The notes: generated by a model from the sequence alone, not told the origin. Shown: positions 11,258 to 20,861, counted from the first letter of the stretch. The stretch: DNA of 32,889 nucleotides from Vicinamibacteria bacterium (GCA_016934575.1 JAFGSN010000203.1:1-32889); one strand, 5' to 3'. Translations and numbers: made by a program.

Positions 11258-12319
11258 TCAGGCTTTCTCGCGCTGACCGCGTATTTCGATCATCGCTTTG
11301 AGCACGCCCGTACAAGGCTGCGCCGCGATCTCCACGGCGCGAGCGGTCTGCTCGAGAGAAAATCGATGGGTGATCAGCTCCTTGACGCGCACCTTGCGCT
11401 GGAACACAAGTTGGGCCGAGGTTTCTTGCAGATCGATAGACGAGCTGTATGCCGTCAAGATCCGCTTCTCGCTCGTGCAGAGGAGACCCAGTTCCACCTC
11501 CGCTTTCTCCCCTTTCGACGTGGCCGAGAACACCATGACCCTGCCGGCCGGCCGCGTCGCGGCAACCGCCTGAGCAAAGGCAACCGGGCCGGGCGCCGCA
11601 AGAAAGGCGCAGTCCGCGCCGCGTCCGTCGGTCCACGATCGCACCGCTGCCGGCACGTCTTCGCTCGCATCGACCGTCCGCTCAGCTCCCAGACGACGAC
11701 CCATATCGAGACGATCCGCGAGCATGTCGGAGACAACCGTTTTCGCCCCTCGTAAGCGCGCCAATTGCATAAGAATCAGGCCGATCGGCCCTTGCCCGAC
11801 GATGAGCGCCGTCTCGTCCGCTTGCAGGCAGGTATTCTCCACGGCCTTGAGACATGTGTTCACCGGCTCGACGAACGCCGCCTCTTCGAAATCCACGCCG
11901 TCGGGGATGCGCAAGATCCCGCGTTCGACGATCCAATCCATGGCCCGCACGTACTCGGCGAATCCCCCGCCGGACGGCTCGAAACCCGCGGTCGTTCCAT
12001 TGCGCTTGTAATGCGCGCACTGGGCAAAGGCGCCGCGATCGCAGTAGAAGCAATCACCGCATGGAACGTGGTGATGAGCCACGACCCGATCGCCTTCGCG
12101 GAAAGCAATCACGCCGCGGCCGACCTCAGCGACAACGCCCGCCATTTCATGACCGAAGATTCGGGGCGCCGGCAGGAGCCCTTTCTGGATCTTCTTGATG
12201 TCGGTCGGGCAGACGCCACACGCCTCGACCGCGATCAAGATCTCTCCCGGCCCGATCGCGGGACGAGGGACATCCTCGATCTCGATCCGCCCGACTCCTC
12301 GATAAACAGCGGCGCGCAT
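11258..12319 (-). CDS. Zinc-dependent MDR-family dehydrogenase (second of tandem pair)
   Basis: The 353-residue product is a second MDR enzyme, clearly diverged from its neighbour. Catalytic zinc ligands lie in ACGVCPTDIKK and GHEMAG, structural zinc cysteines in CGDCFYCDRGAFAQC, and the dinucleotide fold in ALIVGQGPIGLILM followed by TVVSDMLADRLDMGRRLGA, whose aspartate fits NAD preference. ATG 12319 is chosen over an in-frame TTG at 12328, since AGGA lies at a fair distance from the ATG. It is transcribed first in the pair. Two dissimilar zinc dehydrogenases in tandem suggest successive oxidations of one polyol or sugar alcohol, but this is inference. It is divergent from the terpenoid operon, and a functional link is unproven. 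Confidence 0.85.
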   Translation of the reverse strand: MRAAVYRGVGRIEIEDVPRPAIGPGEILIAVEACGVCPTDIKKIQKGLLPAPRIFGHEMAGVVAEVGRGVIAFREGDRVVAHHHVPCGDCFYCDRGAFAQCAHYKRNGTTAGFEPSGGGFAEYVRAMDWIVERGILRIPDGVDFEEAAFVEPVNTCLKAVENTCLQADETALIVGQGPIGLILMQLARLRGAKTVVSDMLADRLDMGRRLGAERTVDASEDVPAAVRSWTDGRGADCAFLAAPGPVAFAQAVAATRPAGRVMVFSATSKGEKAEVELGLLCTSEKRILTAYSSSIDLQETSAQLVFQRKVRVKELITHRFSLEQTARAVEIAAQPCTGVLKAMIEIRGQREKA

Positions 12320-12709
12320 GGGATTCAAATCCTAACGCGGCCGATGGCTGCGGCCAAACGACGGCCTCGCGATGACCTGCCGTCATTGCGCGCCGAGCGC
12401 CACTGTCGCTCCAGCGGCTGGTCTACATCGACAAGCAGTAGAAGCCGGCGAAGCGCTTGACTCCTGTCGCCGCGCAACGACACGGCAGGAGGCGACCTGG
12501 CGATGTGAGATCCCGGCAAGCACGCTCTTCGACGCCTGGCGAGGAGGTTGGCGACGGTCAGAGCCGCCGCCCCGACCTGCGGCGTGGCCGACTCCGGCAT
12601 CACCTTGACACCGCTTGCGGCTTTGGGCGCGAAAGCAAAGGCCTATCAGTTGGTGAGCCGCCCCGCGGCGAAATGCCGTCTGTTCAGTTGAAGGCGGCCG
12701 GCCGCCCCG
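12320..12709. other. Divergent spacer between dehydrogenase pair and terpenoid operon
   Basis: No supported gene. Short open frames exist on both strands but have no recognisable domain or ribosome site. The spacer must hold promoters for both flanking operons. A TTGACA at 12605-12610 points towards the plus-strand operon, but no good -10 lies 16-18 bases downstream, so I do not call a promoter. Confidence 0.4.
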
Positions 12710-14947
12710 ATGTTGGCGGGAAAAATGGATCTTTTCTCAATCGATGCCGTGACAGGCCAATCCGAGGACAACACCGATCCTCTCCTACGACACGCTTCCG
12801 AAATCGAGTGGTGGTGGTGTCTTCTTGAGCTCGATCGCCGTTTTGTCCTGACGACTCGCCTCTTGCGTGTCCGGCCCCGCTTCAACGGAAGCGAAGGCTG
12901 GATGGCTTCAATGTCCATCCAAGAAAACACTGGCGCCATCAGTCATGGCGCCACATTCGTCTGCCGAAATCTCGCCTCGTTTGTTCGAAATCAAGTGCGG
13001 AAATTGGTCCGCAAATCAACGGATGTCTTTCTCAACGCTTTTCTCGAAATCAATCAGGACGGCGGGATCCACGCACCTTTTCGCTCAATGGCAACGCCAA
13101 GGGTCTCCGGGGACTCTGTATTCGAGATTTCCTTCGACCTCGATCCACTTCTGTGGACCATTGACCGCCAGAATCGAACATCGCACTTGAGGATTCGCAC
13201 GCATTTCCTGGAATTCGAAACAGGATTCGATCTTTTCAAGCGGTCGATTCCTATCCCGACTCCGAAGGCCAACGGCTTATCAGGGCGTCTGCTCTGTCGC
13301 GCCCGAATCGCTCCCAGCAGCACCCTGGCCATCAGCGGAAGGCAGGAGATCATCGGGAACGGATCGATCTGGATGGAACACTTTTGGGGGCCCTGGCCTC
13401 AGCGGAATTCCATACGCCACTTTTACCTGCCGGAGATCAATCGGTTTATCGTTCATGTACACGATCATTCCACGCTGTTGATTCAGCACCGTCCTGCGGA
13501 AGAAGCCCTTATTCATCGCCTGGATGCCGACGCCACCGAATTCGAAGACGTCAGTCCAGCATGTGCCGTCTCGGCCGACACCTTCGAAAGCGCCCGCACT
13601 TTCAACCGCTATGACACAAGCTGGTCTTTCAGTCAGGGGGACGCCCAGAGCTTGAACGTCCGGCTCACCGCCGCACCCGCCGAAATCCCGGTACCGAGTA
13701 TGAGAAGGGGCTTCTTGATCTCCGGCTGCCAACTCGAAGGCACGCTTCTCAACGTCCCGATCCGTGGAAGCGGGTGCGCAGAGATCTTCGGCCAAGAGGT
13801 GAACGTCAACCGTTTTTTCTGGGGAATGCAGAAAACCACTCTGGCGACCCGCCTGGAATCGTTCATGCCGAGGGCGTTCGACCCGTCATGGTTTCAACGT
13901 ATCTGCATGACCCCGAACCCCTTGATTCTGGACCCCAACGACGCTCAATTTGCCATATTGGATCCCATCTGGTCCATGATGGACCGCGGCGGAAAGGGAT
14001 GGCGATCCACTTGGTTGGCGCTCTGCCTGTACGCGCTGTCCTACGAAGGGCGCCAATTCATTGATCTCCTTCCCGTCATTGAACTGCTCCACACAGGCAG
14101 CCTGGTTATCGATGACATCCAGGATCAATCCCGCATGCGCCGTGGAAAACCGGCGCTTCACGAACAGATCGGCACCGATCTGGCCATCAACGTGGGAAAT
14201 TTCCTGTATTTCCTGCCACTGATCCTCATCCAGGAGGCTCATTGGCTCAGCGACACACAGCGCCTTCACATCTTCGAGCACATCGCGACAGCACTCAGGC
14301 AAGGCCATATCGGTCAAGGAATCGACCTCATGTGGTCCAAGGGCCGGTTGGATACCGACGCGAAAGCGTCGGACCTTGAAGTGGCGCAATCCCAATTATT
14401 GGAGCAATACAGACTGAAATCCGGATCTCAACTCGAATCGATTGCCCGAATCGCCGGGACCATCTCCCAAGCGCCTCCAAACCTGGTCGCGGTTCTTGCG
14501 GACTACTCCAGGGTATTTGGCGTTGTTTTCCAGATCGTCGACGATCTGATCGATGTTCAGGAGGGTTTCGAGAAACTGGGAAAAGATGAATTCGAGGATC
14601 TTAAGAACGGCCGTCTCAACATGGTGCTGCTCCACACCCTGTGCCGCCTTTCGCCTCGAGAAAGGAGGAAGGTGATCCGAGCCATGAATGACGCGACCGG
14701 CAAGAATCGCGAGACAATCCGGACACTGATCTCGGCTTCAAATGCGGAACAGCAGTGCATCGCGCTGGCCGAAGAGATGATCGAAAAAGCCTGGACGCCC
14801 ATGGCGGCATTGCCGGCCACCGATGCCAAGATCGTCCTACGCTCCGTTCCCAAATGGCTGCTAGAGCAGCGGAGGGCCGCGTCGACAAGAAGACGCGGTG
14901 TTTTCCAGCGAAACTGGAAACGCGCTTGCCAATTCGCTTTGCGGTAG
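12710..14947 (+). CDS. Fusion of AttH/CrtC-like domain and polyprenyl diphosphate synthase
   Basis: A 745-residue two-domain protein. Residues about 400-720 form a trans-isoprenyl diphosphate synthase. They show GGKGWRS (427-433, with the conserved Lys and Arg), the first aspartate motif DDIQD (468-472) in LLHTGSLVIDDIQDQSRMRR, and the second motif DDLID (611-615). Such enzymes condense isopentenyl diphosphate with allylic diphosphates to C15-C20 or longer chains. The first-motif context recalls geranylgeranyl diphosphate synthases of the eukaryotic type. Residues 1 to about 390 look like the lipocalin-type AttH/CrtC (carotenoid 1,2-hydratase) superfamily, with EIEWWWCLLEL at 31-41 and GNGSIWMEHFWGPW in mid-domain. 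A second start, ATG 12725, is possible. The synthase call is firm; the N-terminal one rests on motif resemblance. Confidence 0.85.
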   Translation: MLAGKMDLFSIDAVTGQSEDNTDPLLRHASEIEWWWCLLELDRRFVLTTRLLRVRPRFNGSEGWMASMSIQENTGAISHGATFVCRNLASFVRNQVRKLVRKSTDVFLNAFLEINQDGGIHAPFRSMATPRVSGDSVFEISFDLDPLLWTIDRQNRTSHLRIRTHFLEFETGFDLFKRSIPIPTPKANGLSGRLLCRARIAPSSTLAISGRQEIIGNGSIWMEHFWGPWPQRNSIRHFYLPEINRFIVHVHDHSTLLIQHRPAEEALIHRLDADATEFEDVSPACAVSADTFESARTFNRYDTSWSFSQGDAQSLNVRLTAAPAEIPVPSMRRGFLISGCQLEGTLLNVPIRGSGCAEIFGQEVNVNRFFWGMQKTTLATRLESFMPRAFDPSWFQRICMTPNPLILDPNDAQFAILDPIWSMMDRGGKGWRSTWLALCLYALSYEGRQFIDLLPVIELLHTGSLVIDDIQDQSRMRRGKPALHEQIGTDLAINVGNFLYFLPLILIQEAHWLSDTQRLHIFEHIATALRQGHIGQGIDLMWSKGRLDTDAKASDLEVAQSQLLEQYRLKSGSQLESIARIAGTISQAPPNLVAVLADYSRVFGVVFQIVDDLIDVQEGFEKLGKDEFEDLKNGRLNMVLLHTLCRLSPRERRKVIRAMNDATGKNRETIRTLISASNAEQQCIALAEEMIEKAWTPMAALPATDAKIVLRSVPKWLLEQRRAASTRRRGVFQRNWKRACQFALR

Positions 14948-14963
14948 CCCCCCGGTCATTCCT

Positions 14964-15833
14964 GTGACAGTCCTGTCCCCTTTCTCGGAATTCCTGATCA
15001 AGCATTTTTACTTCTCCGCCTGCCTGGCATTGGTGTTCCTGGCCCTGCTCTCCTTGTTGGTCTTCGCCGGCCACAGAAACACATCGGTGATCAGTGGCGC
15101 GCTATCTCTGCCATGCGGGCTCTACGCAATCTTCTTCGTCCCCGAATACTGGGACCCCGTCCGGGTATTCCGCTGGTTTATCGATGTCGGTCCGGAGGAT
15201 TTTCTGTTCTCGTTTGCCAACGGATGCCTGGTCTGGCTTCTCTGCGTGATGCCCCTTGGAAAGCGGCGTCCGCGGTTCGAGATCTCTGCCCATCCCCTGC
15301 TCTTGAGGTATGGAACCTGTTGCGGAATCTTCATTCCTGCTCTGTTCATCGGGCCCGTTCTAGGGATGGGCGTCATGACATCGTTTCTGGTGGCCAGTTC
15401 CGCTGTTGTGATCGTGGCGCTTTGTCGGAATCCCAAGCTTTGGGTTTTTTCTCTTTCCGGCGCATCGCTCTTCCCATTGTTCTATTTCTTGGTCACGGCC
15501 GCGCTGTTTGCGTTGAAACCGAGTTTTCTCGACGAATGGAACCTTGTCCAACTGTCGGGTGTCCGGGTTTTACGTGTCCCGTTGGAAGAAATCCTCTGGG
15601 CATTTGGGTACGGCTGCGGTTGGTGCACGGTCATGGCGTTTTCGTTTGACGCAAAATTCCCGAAAGCCAACGTGCCACCTCGGCCCCGGGATCCCGCCGG
15701 GGCTTTCTCCGAACGTCAGACCAGGCGCCGCGATTCATCCCAACCCGCCCGGAGTCATGCAATGGTGGACGCCATTAAGATTCCGGCTTTCGACGGCCAG
15801 GCGCCGATATCGCCCCAGAAGCCGGAAGCATGA
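14964..15833 (+). CDS. Membrane protein with two lycopene-cyclase-type domains
   Basis: A highly hydrophobic protein of about 289 residues with roughly seven membrane segments. Two internal units resemble the lycopene cyclase domain of CrtYc/CrtYd-type cyclases. The first is FVPEYWDPVRVFRWF followed by VGPEDFLFSFANG. The second is LDEWNLVQLSGVRVLRV followed by PLEEILWAFGYG. In that family the acidic pair after proline is conserved and probably catalytic; here the units read PED and PLEE. A tail of about 60 polar, proline-rich residues ends the protein. GTG 14964 follows the upstream stop by 16 bases; an in-frame GTG at 14898 would overlap it. The stop overlaps the next start (ATGA). The protein may cyclise the prenyl chain made next door. 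The substrate is unknown. Confidence 0.78.
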   Translation: MTVLSPFSEFLIKHFYFSACLALVFLALLSLLVFAGHRNTSVISGALSLPCGLYAIFFVPEYWDPVRVFRWFIDVGPEDFLFSFANGCLVWLLCVMPLGKRRPRFEISAHPLLLRYGTCCGIFIPALFIGPVLGMGVMTSFLVASSAVVIVALCRNPKLWVFSLSGASLFPLFYFLVTAALFALKPSFLDEWNLVQLSGVRVLRVPLEEILWAFGYGCGWCTVMAFSFDAKFPKANVPPRPRDPAGAFSERQTRRRDSSQPARSHAMVDAIKIPAFDGQAPISPQKPEA

Positions 15834-18800
15834 AGCCATCCCAAACGTCCGTGTTCTGTGAGCGACCGCGGAGGTGGACCCTTTTCGTATCGCGTCTGTC
15901 CGACTTCAGTTTTGACCACGCCCAATGTTTGGCGTGGGCTTCCGGGCTCTTCCTGCTATCGTCATTCTTCTTCACCCGAGGTCTGAAGGTTGACGCGGAT
16001 CTTTTGAAGCTGCTGGATTCGGATGACCCGGCGTTGAATTCGTTCACCGTTCATCAAAATCTGCCCGGGGCAGCGAGCCCACTTATAGTGACCCTGGACA
16101 ACGAGCCAGTAGCCTCCGGCAATATCGGTGAGTTCAAGATCAGGTTAACCGAAGAGCTGCAGCGCTTTGAGGATATCGAGACGTTTCCTGGGCGAATTGA
16201 GGATACGCTTCCCGCCGCGATGCGGCTGATGGCCGCGATGCTCAACCAGGACCCTCCTCGGATTGAGCCGTTTTGTTCACGACTCAGCGCAGCCGGGATG
16301 GAAAAGCATGTTCGAAGAACGAGGAGAAAACTCATCACGGTGAATGATCCGTCAGTGAGAGCGCAACTGGCTTCGGATCCATTGAACTTGCTGGCCCTGG
16401 TTGAGCCCTTTCTCCTCAGCCGCTTCTCTCCTTCGCTTTTTTCCATTGTTACCGGCGACAGAGCACGTCTGCGCGGCGATCTTGGCCATCGAGATTATGT
16501 TTTCCTCAAGCCGAAAGGATCAGCGGAAGACAGTCACTACTGTCGGGACCTTGTGGCTCGCATCGACCAGGCATGCCGAAACGTGGCCATGTCGCTGCCG
16601 GACGGATCATCGATTCGATACGAATTCCTGGGTCTCCATGCCCTGACGGCGAGAAGCACCGTGGTGTTACAGCGCGAGATCATCCGGATCACGGCATGGG
16701 CTACCTTCCTGCTCTTGTTGCTCCTGTTCATCGCGTTGAGGAGGGTGTCGGCCGTGTTCGTGGTGTTTTTCCCACTCTTGCTCTCCATGGCGGCCCTCTT
16801 CTTGTTCGCGCGGCTGTTTTTCAATCCGATCTACTTCATCACAATCGGCTTTGTCGCCATCGTTTTGGGATTGGGACTGGATATATCGCTGCACCTCGCC
16901 GCACATCTCCTTATTAGCAAGTGGGACGGAAAAACGAATCGCCGCGAAGCGGTGAGAACCACCATGATTGAATGCGCCTGGCCGCTCATGATCAGCACGA
17001 TCTCCACCGCATTGGCGTTCATCGCGTTGTTGTTCACGAATATGGAGGCATTGATCCAATTCGCCCTGTTAACGTCCGCCGGCCTGTTGATCACCATGGC
17101 GACCACATTTTGTCTGTTTCCTTGCCTGGTTCGCCTATTGATCGTCCATGAGACCCCAGGTGGACTCAGCATCCGGATTCTCCCCCAATCGTTTTTTGGG
17201 GGTTGCGTTCGGAAACGCGGATGGTGTCTCGTAACGGGGATGATTCTCATCGCCGCGTGCCTGCCCTCTTGCGCGCGCTTCAAATTCAATATCGATCTGA
17301 AGCATCTGTTTCCCGCAATGATGCCGGAACTCGATATCACGCGCTCTTTTGAGCGGGAATCGGATGCGTCTCTGACCTCCACGTTACAGATCAGCATCGA
17401 TGCGCCCAGCATCGAAATCGCCAAGGACGTTCAGAAGAGCCTGGATGAACGGCTTCAAGCCGACGTGAGATCGGGCAGGATCTCTTGTTTCGAATCACCC
17501 AGCAACCACGTACCGTATTCCACTACAACGTGCCCGTCTCAGGACGCGGTCTCGGGTCTCCGAGAAATGCTTTTTTCCCTTTTGAGAAAACACCACATCA
17601 AGGTCACGCCGAACCATGAGGTCTATGGTCGGCTCCTCGAAAGGATGGCCTCGATATCGGAAAACGGCATGGACTCTTTTGCTTATAATGCCGATTTGGC
17701 GCCATGGATTCACAACGGCCAGAATCGCATCCGATTCCTGACCTCCGTCTGGCCCAGCCGCACATGGGCGGGAGAGACTCTGTTCTCCCCAGTCCCGGCC
17801 CGAGACCTGCAGATGGAACTGGATGGATGGTCCCATCCCGCCGACGTCAATGTAAGAGTCTTTAGCACGGCGCACCTTCTCCAGTCACTGCAACAGATGA
17901 TCAGAAGGCAATTCGCAGAAATAAGCTGGATTTCGATCGCGTTAGTTTTCGGCTTCGTGTTCCTGTGCTTTCGCAGAATCCGACCATCGATCATGAGCCT
18001 TGCGCCATTGTTCGGAGCATTGCCGGTCATGGCGGCGTCCGTTGTGGTTTTCAACATTCCGTTCACGCCTACCGGAATTGCATTCATCGCCATTGTCCTC
18101 GGGGTTGGAATCGACGATGCCGTCCACCTGATCACGCGATCGGGATCTTTGCCAGCCGATTCCTTTGCGCGGGCATTCGCCGAAATCGGCCCCGTCTTGA
18201 CTCTGACGTCGTTCACAACAGCGATTGGTTTCGGCAGCCTGACGCTCTCATCACATCCGGTGGTCTCTTCACTGGGAATGGTGGTATCCACGGGTGTCAT
18301 GGCATGCTGGCTCTTCACCATGCTGTTCATGCCCTTCCTCTTGGTTCGACGCACGGGATCGGGTCGCGCGATATCGAAGGGCGCGGCGGCCCTCGTCTTC
18401 TTGACGCTCATCGCCCCGCATGCCATGCCTCAAGAGACGGACGTGAATGACCTTCTGCTCGAAATTCAGCGAGACATGGCGGATATCAAGGCGTGTTCAT
18501 GTCAGTTCTCCGCCGAGAAGAAACTCAGCGAGTTGACCAGGCCGGTTATTCTCGAGGGGAATTGCCTCTTTCAGCAGCCTGATCGGTTCAGAATCGAAGT
18601 CACGGGCGACGAGCGCCTACTGATCCTGAGCGATGGCGGCGCCATTACTCTGATCGATTTGGATTCTGAGGATCTGGAAACCTTCGCTATCGATGAGTTC
18701 CGCGAAGACACGAATATGGGATTTCTCCCGCTCGCGTGGCGATTCGACCCGGAACAGTTGAAACAGCGTTACACGATGCACGCTCGGGTTTCGGGATCCT

Positions 18801-19000
18801 CATCCAAAACACTGGAACTCACGCCACGCGACGCCGAGAGCCCCGTTGCGAAAGTGGCGATCGAGCTTGTCTCCAGAAGTAGAATCAAGAGGGCGACCGC
18901 GTTCTTCAAAAACGGCGACCGGATTCAAACCACGTTCCGCAAGTGGCGTAAACGGAATCCCGTCGGCGAGTCAACATTCCGGTTCTCGCGGCCGCAATAA
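15830..19000 (+). CDS. RND/MMPL-family lipid exporter fused to a LolA-like domain
   Basis: A 1056-residue protein. Residues 1 to about 845 form an RND exporter of the MMPL/HpnN type: two repeats, each with one helix, a large periplasmic loop, then five helices. The functional helices carry VLGLGLDISLHLAAH (first half) and VLGVGIDDAVHLITRS (second half), the GxxxD proton-relay pattern of these pumps. After the last helix comes AISKGAAALVFLTLIAPHAM, then a soluble region (about 865-1056) with the LolA/lipoprotein-sorting look: IQRDMADIKACSCQFS, GNCLFQQPDRFRIEV, LLILSDGGAITLIDLDSED. MMPL plus LolA-like pairs occur in aryl polyene clusters and HpnN in hopanoid export. The stop of the cyclase-like gene overlaps its ATG. 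It probably exports the operon's hydrophobic product. Confidence 0.87.
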   Translation: MKPSQTSVFCERPRRWTLFVSRLSDFSFDHAQCLAWASGLFLLSSFFFTRGLKVDADLLKLLDSDDPALNSFTVHQNLPGAASPLIVTLDNEPVASGNIGEFKIRLTEELQRFEDIETFPGRIEDTLPAAMRLMAAMLNQDPPRIEPFCSRLSAAGMEKHVRRTRRKLITVNDPSVRAQLASDPLNLLALVEPFLLSRFSPSLFSIVTGDRARLRGDLGHRDYVFLKPKGSAEDSHYCRDLVARIDQACRNVAMSLPDGSSIRYEFLGLHALTARSTVVLQREIIRITAWATFLLLLLLFIALRRVSAVFVVFFPLLLSMAALFLFARLFFNPIYFITIGFVAIVLGLGLDISLHLAAHLLISKWDGKTNRREAVRTTMIECAWPLMISTISTALAFIALLFTNMEALIQFALLTSAGLLITMATTFCLFPCLVRLLIVHETPGGLSIRILPQSFFGGCVRKRGWCLVTGMILIAACLPSCARFKFNIDLKHLFPAMMPELDITRSFERESDASLTSTLQISIDAPSIEIAKDVQKSLDERLQADVRSGRISCFESPSNHVPYSTTTCPSQDAVSGLREMLFSLLRKHHIKVTPNHEVYGRLLERMASISENGMDSFAYNADLAPWIHNGQNRIRFLTSVWPSRTWAGETLFSPVPARDLQMELDGWSHPADVNVRVFSTAHLLQSLQQMIRRQFAEISWISIALVFGFVFLCFRRIRPSIMSLAPLFGALPVMAASVVVFNIPFTPTGIAFIAIVLGVGIDDAVHLITRSGSLPADSFARAFAEIGPVLTLTSFTTAIGFGSLTLSSHPVVSSLGMVVSTGVMACWLFTMLFMPFLLVRRTGSGRAISKGAAALVFLTLIAPHAMPQETDVNDLLLEIQRDMADIKACSCQFSAEKKLSELTRPVILEGNCLFQQPDRFRIEVTGDERLLILSDGGAITLIDLDSEDLETFAIDEFREDTNMGFLPLAWRFDPEQLKQRYTMHARVSGSSSKTLELTPRDAESPVAKVAIELVSRSRIKRATAFFKNGDRIQTTFRKWRKRNPVGESTFRFSRPQ

Positions 19001-19203: not shown

Positions 19204-20574
19204 TCAATCCTGGACCGCGAGATCCAACGTGACGTCGTTGTCCGCAGGGGGGAGGTCGGTCCAGATACTCTGAAGCATGACGGCCGCCAACTGCTCGACG
19301 AGGCGGCCGGACACGAACAAACTCTGGATTTGGGCTCTTACATCGGGGGAGATGGCCTCGTCGCCAAGGTAGTGGGCCACCAAGCCGTCGGCGAGCCAGG
19401 GCGCAATCTCCGCCGCTCGTTTGGCCGGGAGCGAGTACGGCGGAGACTGGATGAGCTCGGCGGTCAAGGGAACGAGCCTTAGGCGCTGGTTGTCGTTGGC
19501 GTACGTCTGAAAGTCCGGCGCGAGACCCAGGTCGTGGTCGATAGCGGTGATGTATTTGGTGATGACGATGAGCGTGTCCGCGGCGATATCAACGATGCGG
19601 TAGGGACAGGGGTAGGAGGCGGCCGCTCCGGTTTCGATGTCGAACAAAGGTCGTTTCCGGCCGTCCACGACGAACTGGGTTATGTCGTTGGCGTGGAAGT
19701 GACCCGTGAAAACCGCCCCGACGCCGCCATCTAAAAGCAGTGAGGCCACGTCCGCGTGATCGTCGACAACGAAATCGGAGAAAAGCAACGTCTGCCTGGT
19801 GAAGTGTTCGATCAGCCCATGGTGCAACATACCCACGACCGTCGTCGCACTCCGTTTGGCTTCGTCAAGCATGGACTCGATCCAGGCCCTGGTGCTCGCG
19901 GACAGCCGTCCTGCGTGCTTCGAGCTGCCACGCGTGTCGCCGTAGATGCACGAGTCGATCGCCAGAAGCCACAGTCCCGGCGCCAACTCGGCGACGTAAC
20001 TAAGCGAGGCCGGATCGCGCGCGATGGCCTCGCCGTAGCCGGCATCCTCATAGATGCTGGCAAACTCGGCGGCGGAAACCGTCGGGACTTCTCGGGTCTC
20101 GGTTCCAGCGTAGCTCAAGGCATTGGCGTTCTGAATGTCGTGGTTCCCCGGCACGACGAAGACCTTGCGTCCGCCGCTCTTCATCTGGCGCAGGTAGTCG
20201 GCGATGCCCTCGTGCGAGACGCGTTCGCCGTCCTTGGTGAGATCTCCCGCGACCAGTACAATCTGTGGATTCTCTCTCTCTACCAGGTCCGTCAAGGCGC
20301 GCATGATTGCGTCGCTCTCCATGAGCAGCTTGGGGTCGTGAGCGAGATAGTCCTCCAACGCCTCACCCTGGGACCATAGCGACGGAGCGAAGTAGTGCGG
20401 GTCGGAGAACACCATCAGCCTCGCCATGGAAGTCTCGTTCTGAATCGTCCCGGGAGTGTCGCCACATCCCGCGGTCAGAAAAGGCGCAAGAAGAGCGGTG
20501 ACAGCAAGGCGCAAAGGCAGACGGCGAACGTCCGACGCCAGTCTTCTTGAATATCGCGCATATATGCTCTGCAT
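19204..20574 (-). CDS. Exported metallophosphoesterase, probable lipoprotein
   Basis: The 456-residue product starts at ATG 20574 with a signal peptide (RRLPLRLAVTALLAPFLTAGCG). Its LTAGC matches a lipobox, so a lipid-anchored protein is likely. The calcineurin-like fold shows all metal-binding motifs in order: FSDPHY (a DxH), LVAGDLTKDGE, VVPGNHDIQN, GMLHHG and FTGHFHANDI. This is close to the cyclic-nucleotide phosphodiesterase (CpdA/Icc-like) and related exported phosphatases; the true substrate is unknown. The region after about residue 350 is an extra C-terminal part without recognised motifs. In-frame upstream codons to 20631 would bury the signal peptide. It stands alone, convergent with the terpenoid operon. 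Confidence 0.87.
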   Translation of the reverse strand: MQSIYARYSRRLASDVRRLPLRLAVTALLAPFLTAGCGDTPGTIQNETSMARLMVFSDPHYFAPSLWSQGEALEDYLAHDPKLLMESDAIMRALTDLVERENPQIVLVAGDLTKDGERVSHEGIADYLRQMKSGGRKVFVVPGNHDIQNANALSYAGTETREVPTVSAAEFASIYEDAGYGEAIARDPASLSYVAELAPGLWLLAIDSCIYGDTRGSSKHAGRLSASTRAWIESMLDEAKRSATTVVGMLHHGLIEHFTRQTLLFSDFVVDDHADVASLLLDGGVGAVFTGHFHANDITQFVVDGRKRPLFDIETGAAASYPCPYRIVDIAADTLIVITKYITAIDHDLGLAPDFQTYANDNQRLRLVPLTAELIQSPPYSLPAKRAAEIAPWLADGLVAHYLGDEAISPDVRAQIQSLFVSGRLVEQLAAVMLQSIWTDLPPADNDVTLDLAVQD

Positions 20575-20861
20575 CTCGTTCCGGTATTCCCTCGTTTGGC
20601 GCGCGTAGACTACTTCATCGAGCGTGAGCAAACGATTGTCGCCGCCTCCACATGAACAGACGGCATTTCGCCCCGGTGCGGCTCACCAGATGGCGCAGAA
20701 CGACTGCGCGTTGCGGCAGCCCGCGCTCACTCAGCGAGCCTGAGCCGAACCGACTTCCGCACCGCTCTCTTCGAATAAGGAGCGGACGTTTCCTCGGATG
20801 CGGTTCGCGGCAATTCGAGGCAGCGGTCCAGTCATCCTGATGAGCGGTCACGACCATAATT

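Follow-up and report, generated by a model that had tools for sequence, protein, structure and literature searches.

The 32,889-nucleotide stretch analysed here (the window; GCA_016934575.1 JAFGSN010000203.1:1-32889, from a Vicinamibacteria bacterium) carries a three-gene operon that is probably, at odds of about two in three, devoted to making an isoprenoid lipid and exporting it. The first open reading frame (ORF1) fuses a domain of the CrtC/AttH fold to an isoprenyl diphosphate synthase, ORF2 encodes a membrane protein of the lycopene-cyclase-type family PF18916, and ORF3 joins an RND pump and a LolA domain in one chain. The case is carried by this domain content, by intact synthase motifs, and by conserved linkage of the fusion to lipid exporters in its relatives, the nearest of which also have a PF18916 gene. 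An earlier note, made from the sequence alone, had proposed that the operon makes a modified isoprenoid for the outer envelope. The linkage of fusion and exporter recurs in relatives as that proposal would predict, but the modification reactions, the product and its delivery to the envelope are still matters of inference.

A prenyl diphosphate synthase fused to a CrtC/AttH-type domain

Relatives of ORF1 were collected by an alignment-based scan of a genome collection, keeping the best 80 of at least 148 relatives; scanning with ORF1 as a lone query gave no matches. Sixty-seven fusion proteins of sufficient length, including that of the window and three from plasmids, were aligned and underlie the conservation counts for ORF1. 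The C-terminal half of ORF1 retains 40 of 45 near-invariant positions, both Asp-rich motifs among them. An AlphaFold2 model of the protein (alignment of 46 sequences, pLDDT 86, pTM 0.90) places this half close to 3oyr in a Foldseek search (2e-11). The PF00348 score, both motifs and the predicted fold all agree with a trans-isoprenyl diphosphate synthase.

The N-terminal half required a less direct approach. Whereas PF00348, PF18916, MMPL and LolA score in the operon, the CrtC/AttH profiles PF07143 and PF17186 find no match in the N-terminal half of the window copy. Proteins of Tolypothrix and Streptomyces, recovered in a plasmid search, match ORF1 far past the synthase domain, and in these CrtC (PF07143) and Lipocalin_9 (PF17186) are clearly scored ahead of the synthase. 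Compared by hhalign, a profile of the N-terminal halves of the 67 fusion proteins matches CrtC/AttH proteins from the phylum of the window with 99.9% probability (E 2.7e-36), which the window sequence alone does not. Foldseek pairs the modelled N-terminal half with AttH (2ich, E 4.4e-10, TM 0.68 by target length) and with kievitone hydratase (7a0t, E 1.1e-9). Together, the relatives, the profile comparison and the predicted structure establish the CrtC/AttH fold of this half, and the fusion described in the note is upheld.

CrtC adds water to the terminal prenyl unit of both lycopene and short terpenoids, using Asp268 with the aid of Trp residues (PMC4717167, PMC12402844); the target of kievitone hydratase is likewise a prenyl group, on an isoflavonoid (PMC5805349). 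The position equivalent to Asp268, residue 223 of ORF1, is D in 59 of the 67 fusion proteins and E in seven (the window and six others), a conservative change, giving an acid in 66/67, and W221 and E325 are invariant (67/67). A W-x-W pair follows, with W in 64/67 and 60/67 at its two positions. As the D-to-W spacing of 15/17 in a CrtC/AttH protein is that of D268-W283-W285, the pair corresponds to Trp283 and Trp285 of CrtC, mutation of which abolished or drastically cut activity (PMC12402844). The window copy keeps 13 of the 22 near-invariant residues of this half, with EWW, W221, E223 (for D), H224 and E325 retained.

Linkage of the fusion to lipid exporters

L091 (Gammaproteobacteria), L092 (Arenicella) and the window form a group in a tree of the family (support 100), nested in a clade of 18 sequences (support 99). 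An envelope lipid exporter is a same-strand neighbour of the fusion in nine of these 18, and a PF18916 gene in four. L091 and L092 share the order fusion, ABC ATPase, MacB/FtsX permease and PF18916, with overlapping genes in L091. In two Aminicenantes loci (L119 and L162) the fusion is followed by an RND gene and then by LolA. The phylum of the window is also that of Aminicenantes (Acidobacteriota in GTDB), one of its genomes having a contig identical to that of Candidatus Aminicenantes CSMAG_2431. Elsewhere, the fusion of L105 is followed by an HlyD-type gene, an ATPase and a pair of FtsX permeases, in L104 and L108 it lies directly downstream of FtsX and ATPase genes, L110 has an FtsX end, L127 has an adjoining RND gene on the opposite strand in convergent orientation, and in L149 (Nitrospirota) a PF18916-like gene precedes the fusion. 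All loci named here with an exporter gene (L091, L092, L104, L105, L108, L110, L119, L127 and L162) lie inside the clade of the window.

For the exporter count a gene had to adjoin the fusion; an ABC ATPase within 6 kb, as at 11 of 69 loci, was not taken as evidence on its own, since such genes are common. The query proteins came from the clade of the window, so the count leans towards that clade, and it missed, for instance, an FtsX-type gene near the L116 fusion, while a DevC gene beside L086 is known from annotation. The clade neighbourhoods, together with the matches of ORF3 to the RND and LolA proteins of L119, show a recurrent association of the fusion with a lipid exporter, the type of which swaps between ABC and RND-LolA. 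Both kinds of association have precedents, as AttH genes associate with LolD/ABC genes (PMC2954199) and an aryl-polyene lipid is delivered by RND and LolA-like proteins (PMC8253772).

ORF3 is an RND-LolA fusion, as first described, with Pfam matches to MMPL (1.5e-17) and LolA. Its RND half aligns end to end with the RND protein adjoining the L119 fusion (31% identity, 338 bits, 842 residues), and its LolA part is matched over its full length by the Aminicenantes LolA that adjoins its own fusion and RND genes. L119 and L162 encode LolA separately, but in the window it is fused to the pump. By contrast, alignment of ORF3 with HpnN reaches about 70 bits, far below the L119 match, and its NCBIfam HpnN score of 128 bits lies well short of the cut-off of 752. 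The extra hydrophobic segment between pump and LolA probably derives from the signal peptide of a once separate LolA and now anchors this domain in the periplasm.

ORF2 scores 36.6 bits against PF18916 (cut-off 27) and carries an acidic motif in each half. Among PF18916 proteins, those not found in carotenoid clusters are nearer to it than the two-PxEE type is. PF18916 is rare in the phylum (16 of 396 genomes), as against the four of 18 clade loci in which it lies within 2.2 kb of the fusion. A PF18916 branch with the signature FxPxYWxPP...GFDIES...PxEE was noted in L002, L037 and L089 (a Methylophaga plasmid); the L089 gene adjoins fatty-acid-modifying and exporter genes, and the branch probably does not perform lycopene cyclisation.

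Table 1. Features of the operon and its flanks in the window
Feature	Residues	Coordinates	Strand	Basis or remark
ORF1		12710..14947	+	CrtC/AttH-fold domain fused to isoprenyl diphosphate synthase, 745 aa
CrtC/AttH double-lipocalin half	25-363	12782..13798	+	hhalign, Foldseek; fast-evolving in window copy
E223 codon	223	13376..13378	+	equivalent of CrtC proton donor Asp268
Polyprenyl synthetase domain	417-672	13958..14725	+	PF00348 1.4e-46
First Asp-rich motif, DDIQD	468-472	14111..14125	+	D468, D469, D472 invariant in 67/67 fusion proteins
Second Asp-rich motif, DDLID	611-615	14540..14554	+	D611, D612 invariant in 67/67 fusion proteins
ORF2		14964..15833	+	PF18916 (lycopene-cyclase-type) membrane protein, 289 aa, GTG start
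First-repeat acidic motif, PED	77-79	15192..15200	+	E78 invariant in aligned set
Second-repeat acidic motif, PLEE	206-209	15579..15590	+	P206, E209 invariant
ORF2 stop/ORF3 start overlap, ATGA		15830..15833	+	sequence
ORF3		15830..19000	+	RND (HpnN/HAE3-type) pump fused to LolA, 1056 aa
RND half		15887..18364	+	Asp in both half-repeats: LGLGLD351, LGVGID762
Extra hydrophobic segment	847-866	18368..18427	+	hydrophobicity scan; 20 residues between pump and LolA
LolA domain	886-1053	18485..18988	+	PF03548 5.8e-13, 49.4 vs cut-off 23.6 bits
Zinc alcohol dehydrogenase gene preceding operon		11258-12328	opposite to operon	
Metallophosphoesterase gene after operon		19204-20631	opposite to operon	

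The layout first reported proved correct in its coordinates, with three genes on one strand, a 16-bp gap between ORF1 and the GTG start of ORF2, and an ATGA overlap between ORF2 and ORF3 (Table 1). As both flanking genes lie on the opposite strand, the operon consists of exactly these three. The window is one entire contig of a draft genome of 3.98 Mb that is 98% complete. It carries a single-copy NusA gene ~84% identical to those of same-family genomes, which shows the contig to be native; contamination of the metagenome-assembled genome (MAG) was considered and ruled out on the same grounds.

Proposed pathway and competing explanations

In the proposed pathway, the C-terminal half of ORF1 would, going by its intact motifs, condense isopentenyl diphosphate and an allylic diphosphate into an all-trans prenyl diphosphate of C20 or longer. 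The product would pass to the fused CrtC/AttH-fold half where, in the family at large, the Asp/Glu probably protonates the terminal (omega) double bond, leading to hydration or cyclisation, as the fold and residues suggest; in the window this half is partly degenerate. ORF2, with its two acidic motifs, may then cyclise or otherwise modify the end group within the membrane, perhaps in place of the CrtC half. Lastly, the proton-driven RND half of ORF3 would lift the lipid from the inner membrane to the tethered LolA domain, which would carry it to the outer envelope.

Several observations weigh against this pathway. Eight of the 18 clade members have no exporter adjoining the fusion, although several of these loci stop at a contig edge. 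The adjacency expected by the earlier note recurs in parts, as fusion, ABC and PF18916 genes in the two nearest relatives and as fusion, RND and LolA genes in Aminicenantes, but among the loci inspected the exact trio of fusion, PF18916 and RND-LolA was seen only in the window. Of its 22 near-invariant residues, the CrtC half of the window copy lacks nine, with I243 and R245 in place of the two Trp of the W-x-W pair, and so may not be catalytic. A structure search with ORF2 found no fold match in the PDB, its PF18916 branch is without known function, and 'lycopene cyclase', the type assigned to it in the note, holds only as a family-level label.

Divergence of the CrtC half is not confined to the window. 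Identity between the window and L091 is 26.6% in this half and 54% in the other, and within the group of the window, L091 and L092 the N-terminal halves are 21-27% identical and the C-terminal halves 50-55%. The gap is much smaller in other clade members (about 37-41% versus 45-51%). This difference shows relaxed or redirected evolution of the CrtC half in the group that combines fusion, PF18916 and exporter. A simple reading would be that the end-group chemistry has passed to ORF2; the L149 fusion, which has a PF18916-like neighbour and yet a fully conserved N-terminal half, counts against it.

The main rival explanation is a carotenoid tailoring unit. Here unlinked genes would supply a C30 (squalene-derived) or C40 carotenoid, ORF1 and ORF2 would act on it as CrtE/CrtC/CrtY-type enzymes, and ORF3 would deliver the pigment to the outer envelope. 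CrtC, CrtE and CrtYc/Yd are indeed carotenoid enzymes, found together in the Myxococcus carB operon (PMC8156234), and squalene-route C30 carotenoids are known in Planctomycetota (PMC12078418). No phytoene synthase or desaturase was found in the window, but one CrtI-family desaturase is encoded on another, 6-kb contig (C229, 4522-5952; 502 bits against a cut-off of 238), so the absence of a desaturase stated in the note is true of the window and not of the genome. A genome-wide PF00494 search recovered only two SQS_PSY genes, adjacent to each other and beside HpnE on contig C1 (19530-22523); one scores as HpnD and the other is presumably HpnC. As the genome lacks a third SQS_PSY gene and a true squalene-hopene cyclase, C40 carotenoid and hopanoid synthesis are both unsupported. 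A hopene-cyclase-like match was rejected as partial (27 bits, in a short toroid-type protein). As the note held, the operon is not a standard carotenoid cluster, nor is it a hopanoid one.

A C30 carotenoid from squalene is possible, as the genome has HpnD/HpnE, the second SQS_PSY gene and CrtI, and no hopene cyclase to consume squalene. However, the clusters inspected in relatives have no recognised phytoene synthase or CrtI beside the fusion, ORF2 sides with PF18916 proteins outside carotenoid clusters, and the fusion of a prenyl synthase to a CrtC fold suggests that the substrate is the synthase's own product. A carotenoid role in either form is rather unlikely. It is also improbable that the CrtC/AttH half is a mere lipid-binding lipocalin, protecting an unmodified polyprenyl chain or handing it on for export, with a head group attached elsewhere. 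The missing Trp pair, which would stabilise a cation, the roughly twofold faster evolution of the N-terminal half than of the rest, and the link of AttH proteins to ABC/Lol transporters and lipid handling (PMC2954199) would suit such a role. Nevertheless, the conservation of W221, E325 and the acid at position 223 is that expected of an enzyme, another branch of the family has clusters with P450s, a methyltransferase and a glycosyltransferase yet no recognised terpene cyclase near the fusion, and ORF2 would remain a modifying enzyme. Chance neighbourhood or a decaying remnant might explain why the operon was not found in the other 16 genomes of the order and why the N-terminal half of ORF1 has diverged. 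This is very hard to reconcile with three long stop-free, partly overlapping frames with intact motifs in all three proteins, and is already contradicted by the recurrent linkage of the same kinds of gene in distant phyla.

The fusion family and known systems

The proposed synthesis-and-export unit shares features with several known systems. ORF1 shares with the CrtC/AttH family (PF07143, PF17186) the double-lipocalin fold, the EWW motif and the W-x-(D/E) proton-donor site, but it is fused to a prenyl diphosphate synthase, has lost W-x-W, goes undetected by the Pfam profiles and lacks linked carotenoid genes. Kievitone hydratase (7a0t, 7a0q) has the same fold by Foldseek and adds water to a prenyl group at its terminal double bond, although it is a free-standing fungal enzyme acting on an isoflavonoid, with 11-13% identity. 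A prenyl diphosphate synthase fused to a product-modifying domain is also found in the fungal copalyl diphosphate synthase PvCPS and fusicoccadiene synthase PaFS, but their cyclase domains are classical terpene cyclase folds. ORF2 is above the family cut-off and has acidic motifs in both halves like the heterodimer-type lycopene cyclases CrtYc/CrtYd, but falls in a separate branch (FVPEYWxP; first motif PED/IED/IES) and has no carotenoid genes linked to it.

Among exporters, ORF3 belongs with HpnN and the HAE3/MMPL pumps in the RND family, sharing the Asp in both half-repeats and lipid-exporter relatives. It differs from HpnN in its sub-threshold score, in carrying LolA in the same chain and in its genome, which lacks a hopene cyclase. 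The aryl polyene module (ApeM RND, ApeL LolA-like, ApeN LolB-like) likewise dedicates an RND pump and a LolA carrier to the lipid of neighbouring genes; its cargo is a fatty-acid-type polyene, whereas that of the window is a putative isoprenoid, and no LolB-like gene was seen in the operon. AttEFGH-type systems pair a CrtC/AttH-fold protein with a Lol/MacB-type ABC exporter, as do L091, L092, L104, L105 and L108, while the window uses RND-LolA and its AttH part is fused to the prenyl synthase.

Fusion relatives occur in Myxococcota, Bacteroidota, Balneolota, Aminicenantes, Verrucomicrobiota, Nitrospirota, Omnitrophota, Desulfobacterales, Actinomycetota, Planctomycetota (Scalindua), Pseudomonadota and archaea, whereas long matches are rare in the phylum of the window (2 of 396 sampled genomes) and the fusion is missing from the other 16 genomes of the order. 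No description of this fusion was found in the searchable open-licence literature. Branches outside the clade of the window look like terpenoid clusters. In Spirosoma and Telluribacter (L093, L095, L114, L141; similarly L097) the fusion is clustered with cytochromes P450, an FkbM methyltransferase, a GT28-like glycosyltransferase and a lipase-maturation-factor gene (LMF1), with no recognised terpene cyclase among the genes inspected near it. Single chains of ~1509 residues in a Tolypothrix plasmid (L086:5803-10329) and a Polyangiaceae genome (L102:6863-11389) join sulfotransferase, glycosyltransferase, CrtC/lipocalin and prenyl synthase, and probably make sulfated, glycosylated terpenoids. A Nitrosomonas stercoris conjugative plasmid (L088:7978-9924) encodes a family member with a strongly diverged or shortened N-terminal half, adjoining a flavin monooxygenase and a methyltransferase. 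The fusion of L116, a MAG labelled Klebsiella pneumoniae, lies deep among Myxococcota in the tree, and the record is probably mislabelled or contaminated.

The same pairing of maker and exporter in distant relatives points to a widespread, undescribed lipid pathway. More tentatively, and at somewhat less than even odds, the CrtC/AttH fold fused to prenyl synthase may represent a new class of proton-initiated terpene hydratase/cyclase that is widespread, occurring in archaea and many bacterial phyla; one clade of this class would define undescribed envelope isoprenoid lipids with interchangeable exporters (Lol/MacB-type ABC or RND-LolA). If so, many genes annotated just as 'polyprenyl synthetase family protein' would be two-domain terpenoid enzymes, in one clade with their own lipid exporter, and a non-classical terpene-modifying fold would already be joined to the maker of its substrate. 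Uncultured phyla would also turn out to have a hitherto unknown kind of envelope lipid, and the use of two unrelated exporter types for one cargo would amount to a natural experiment.

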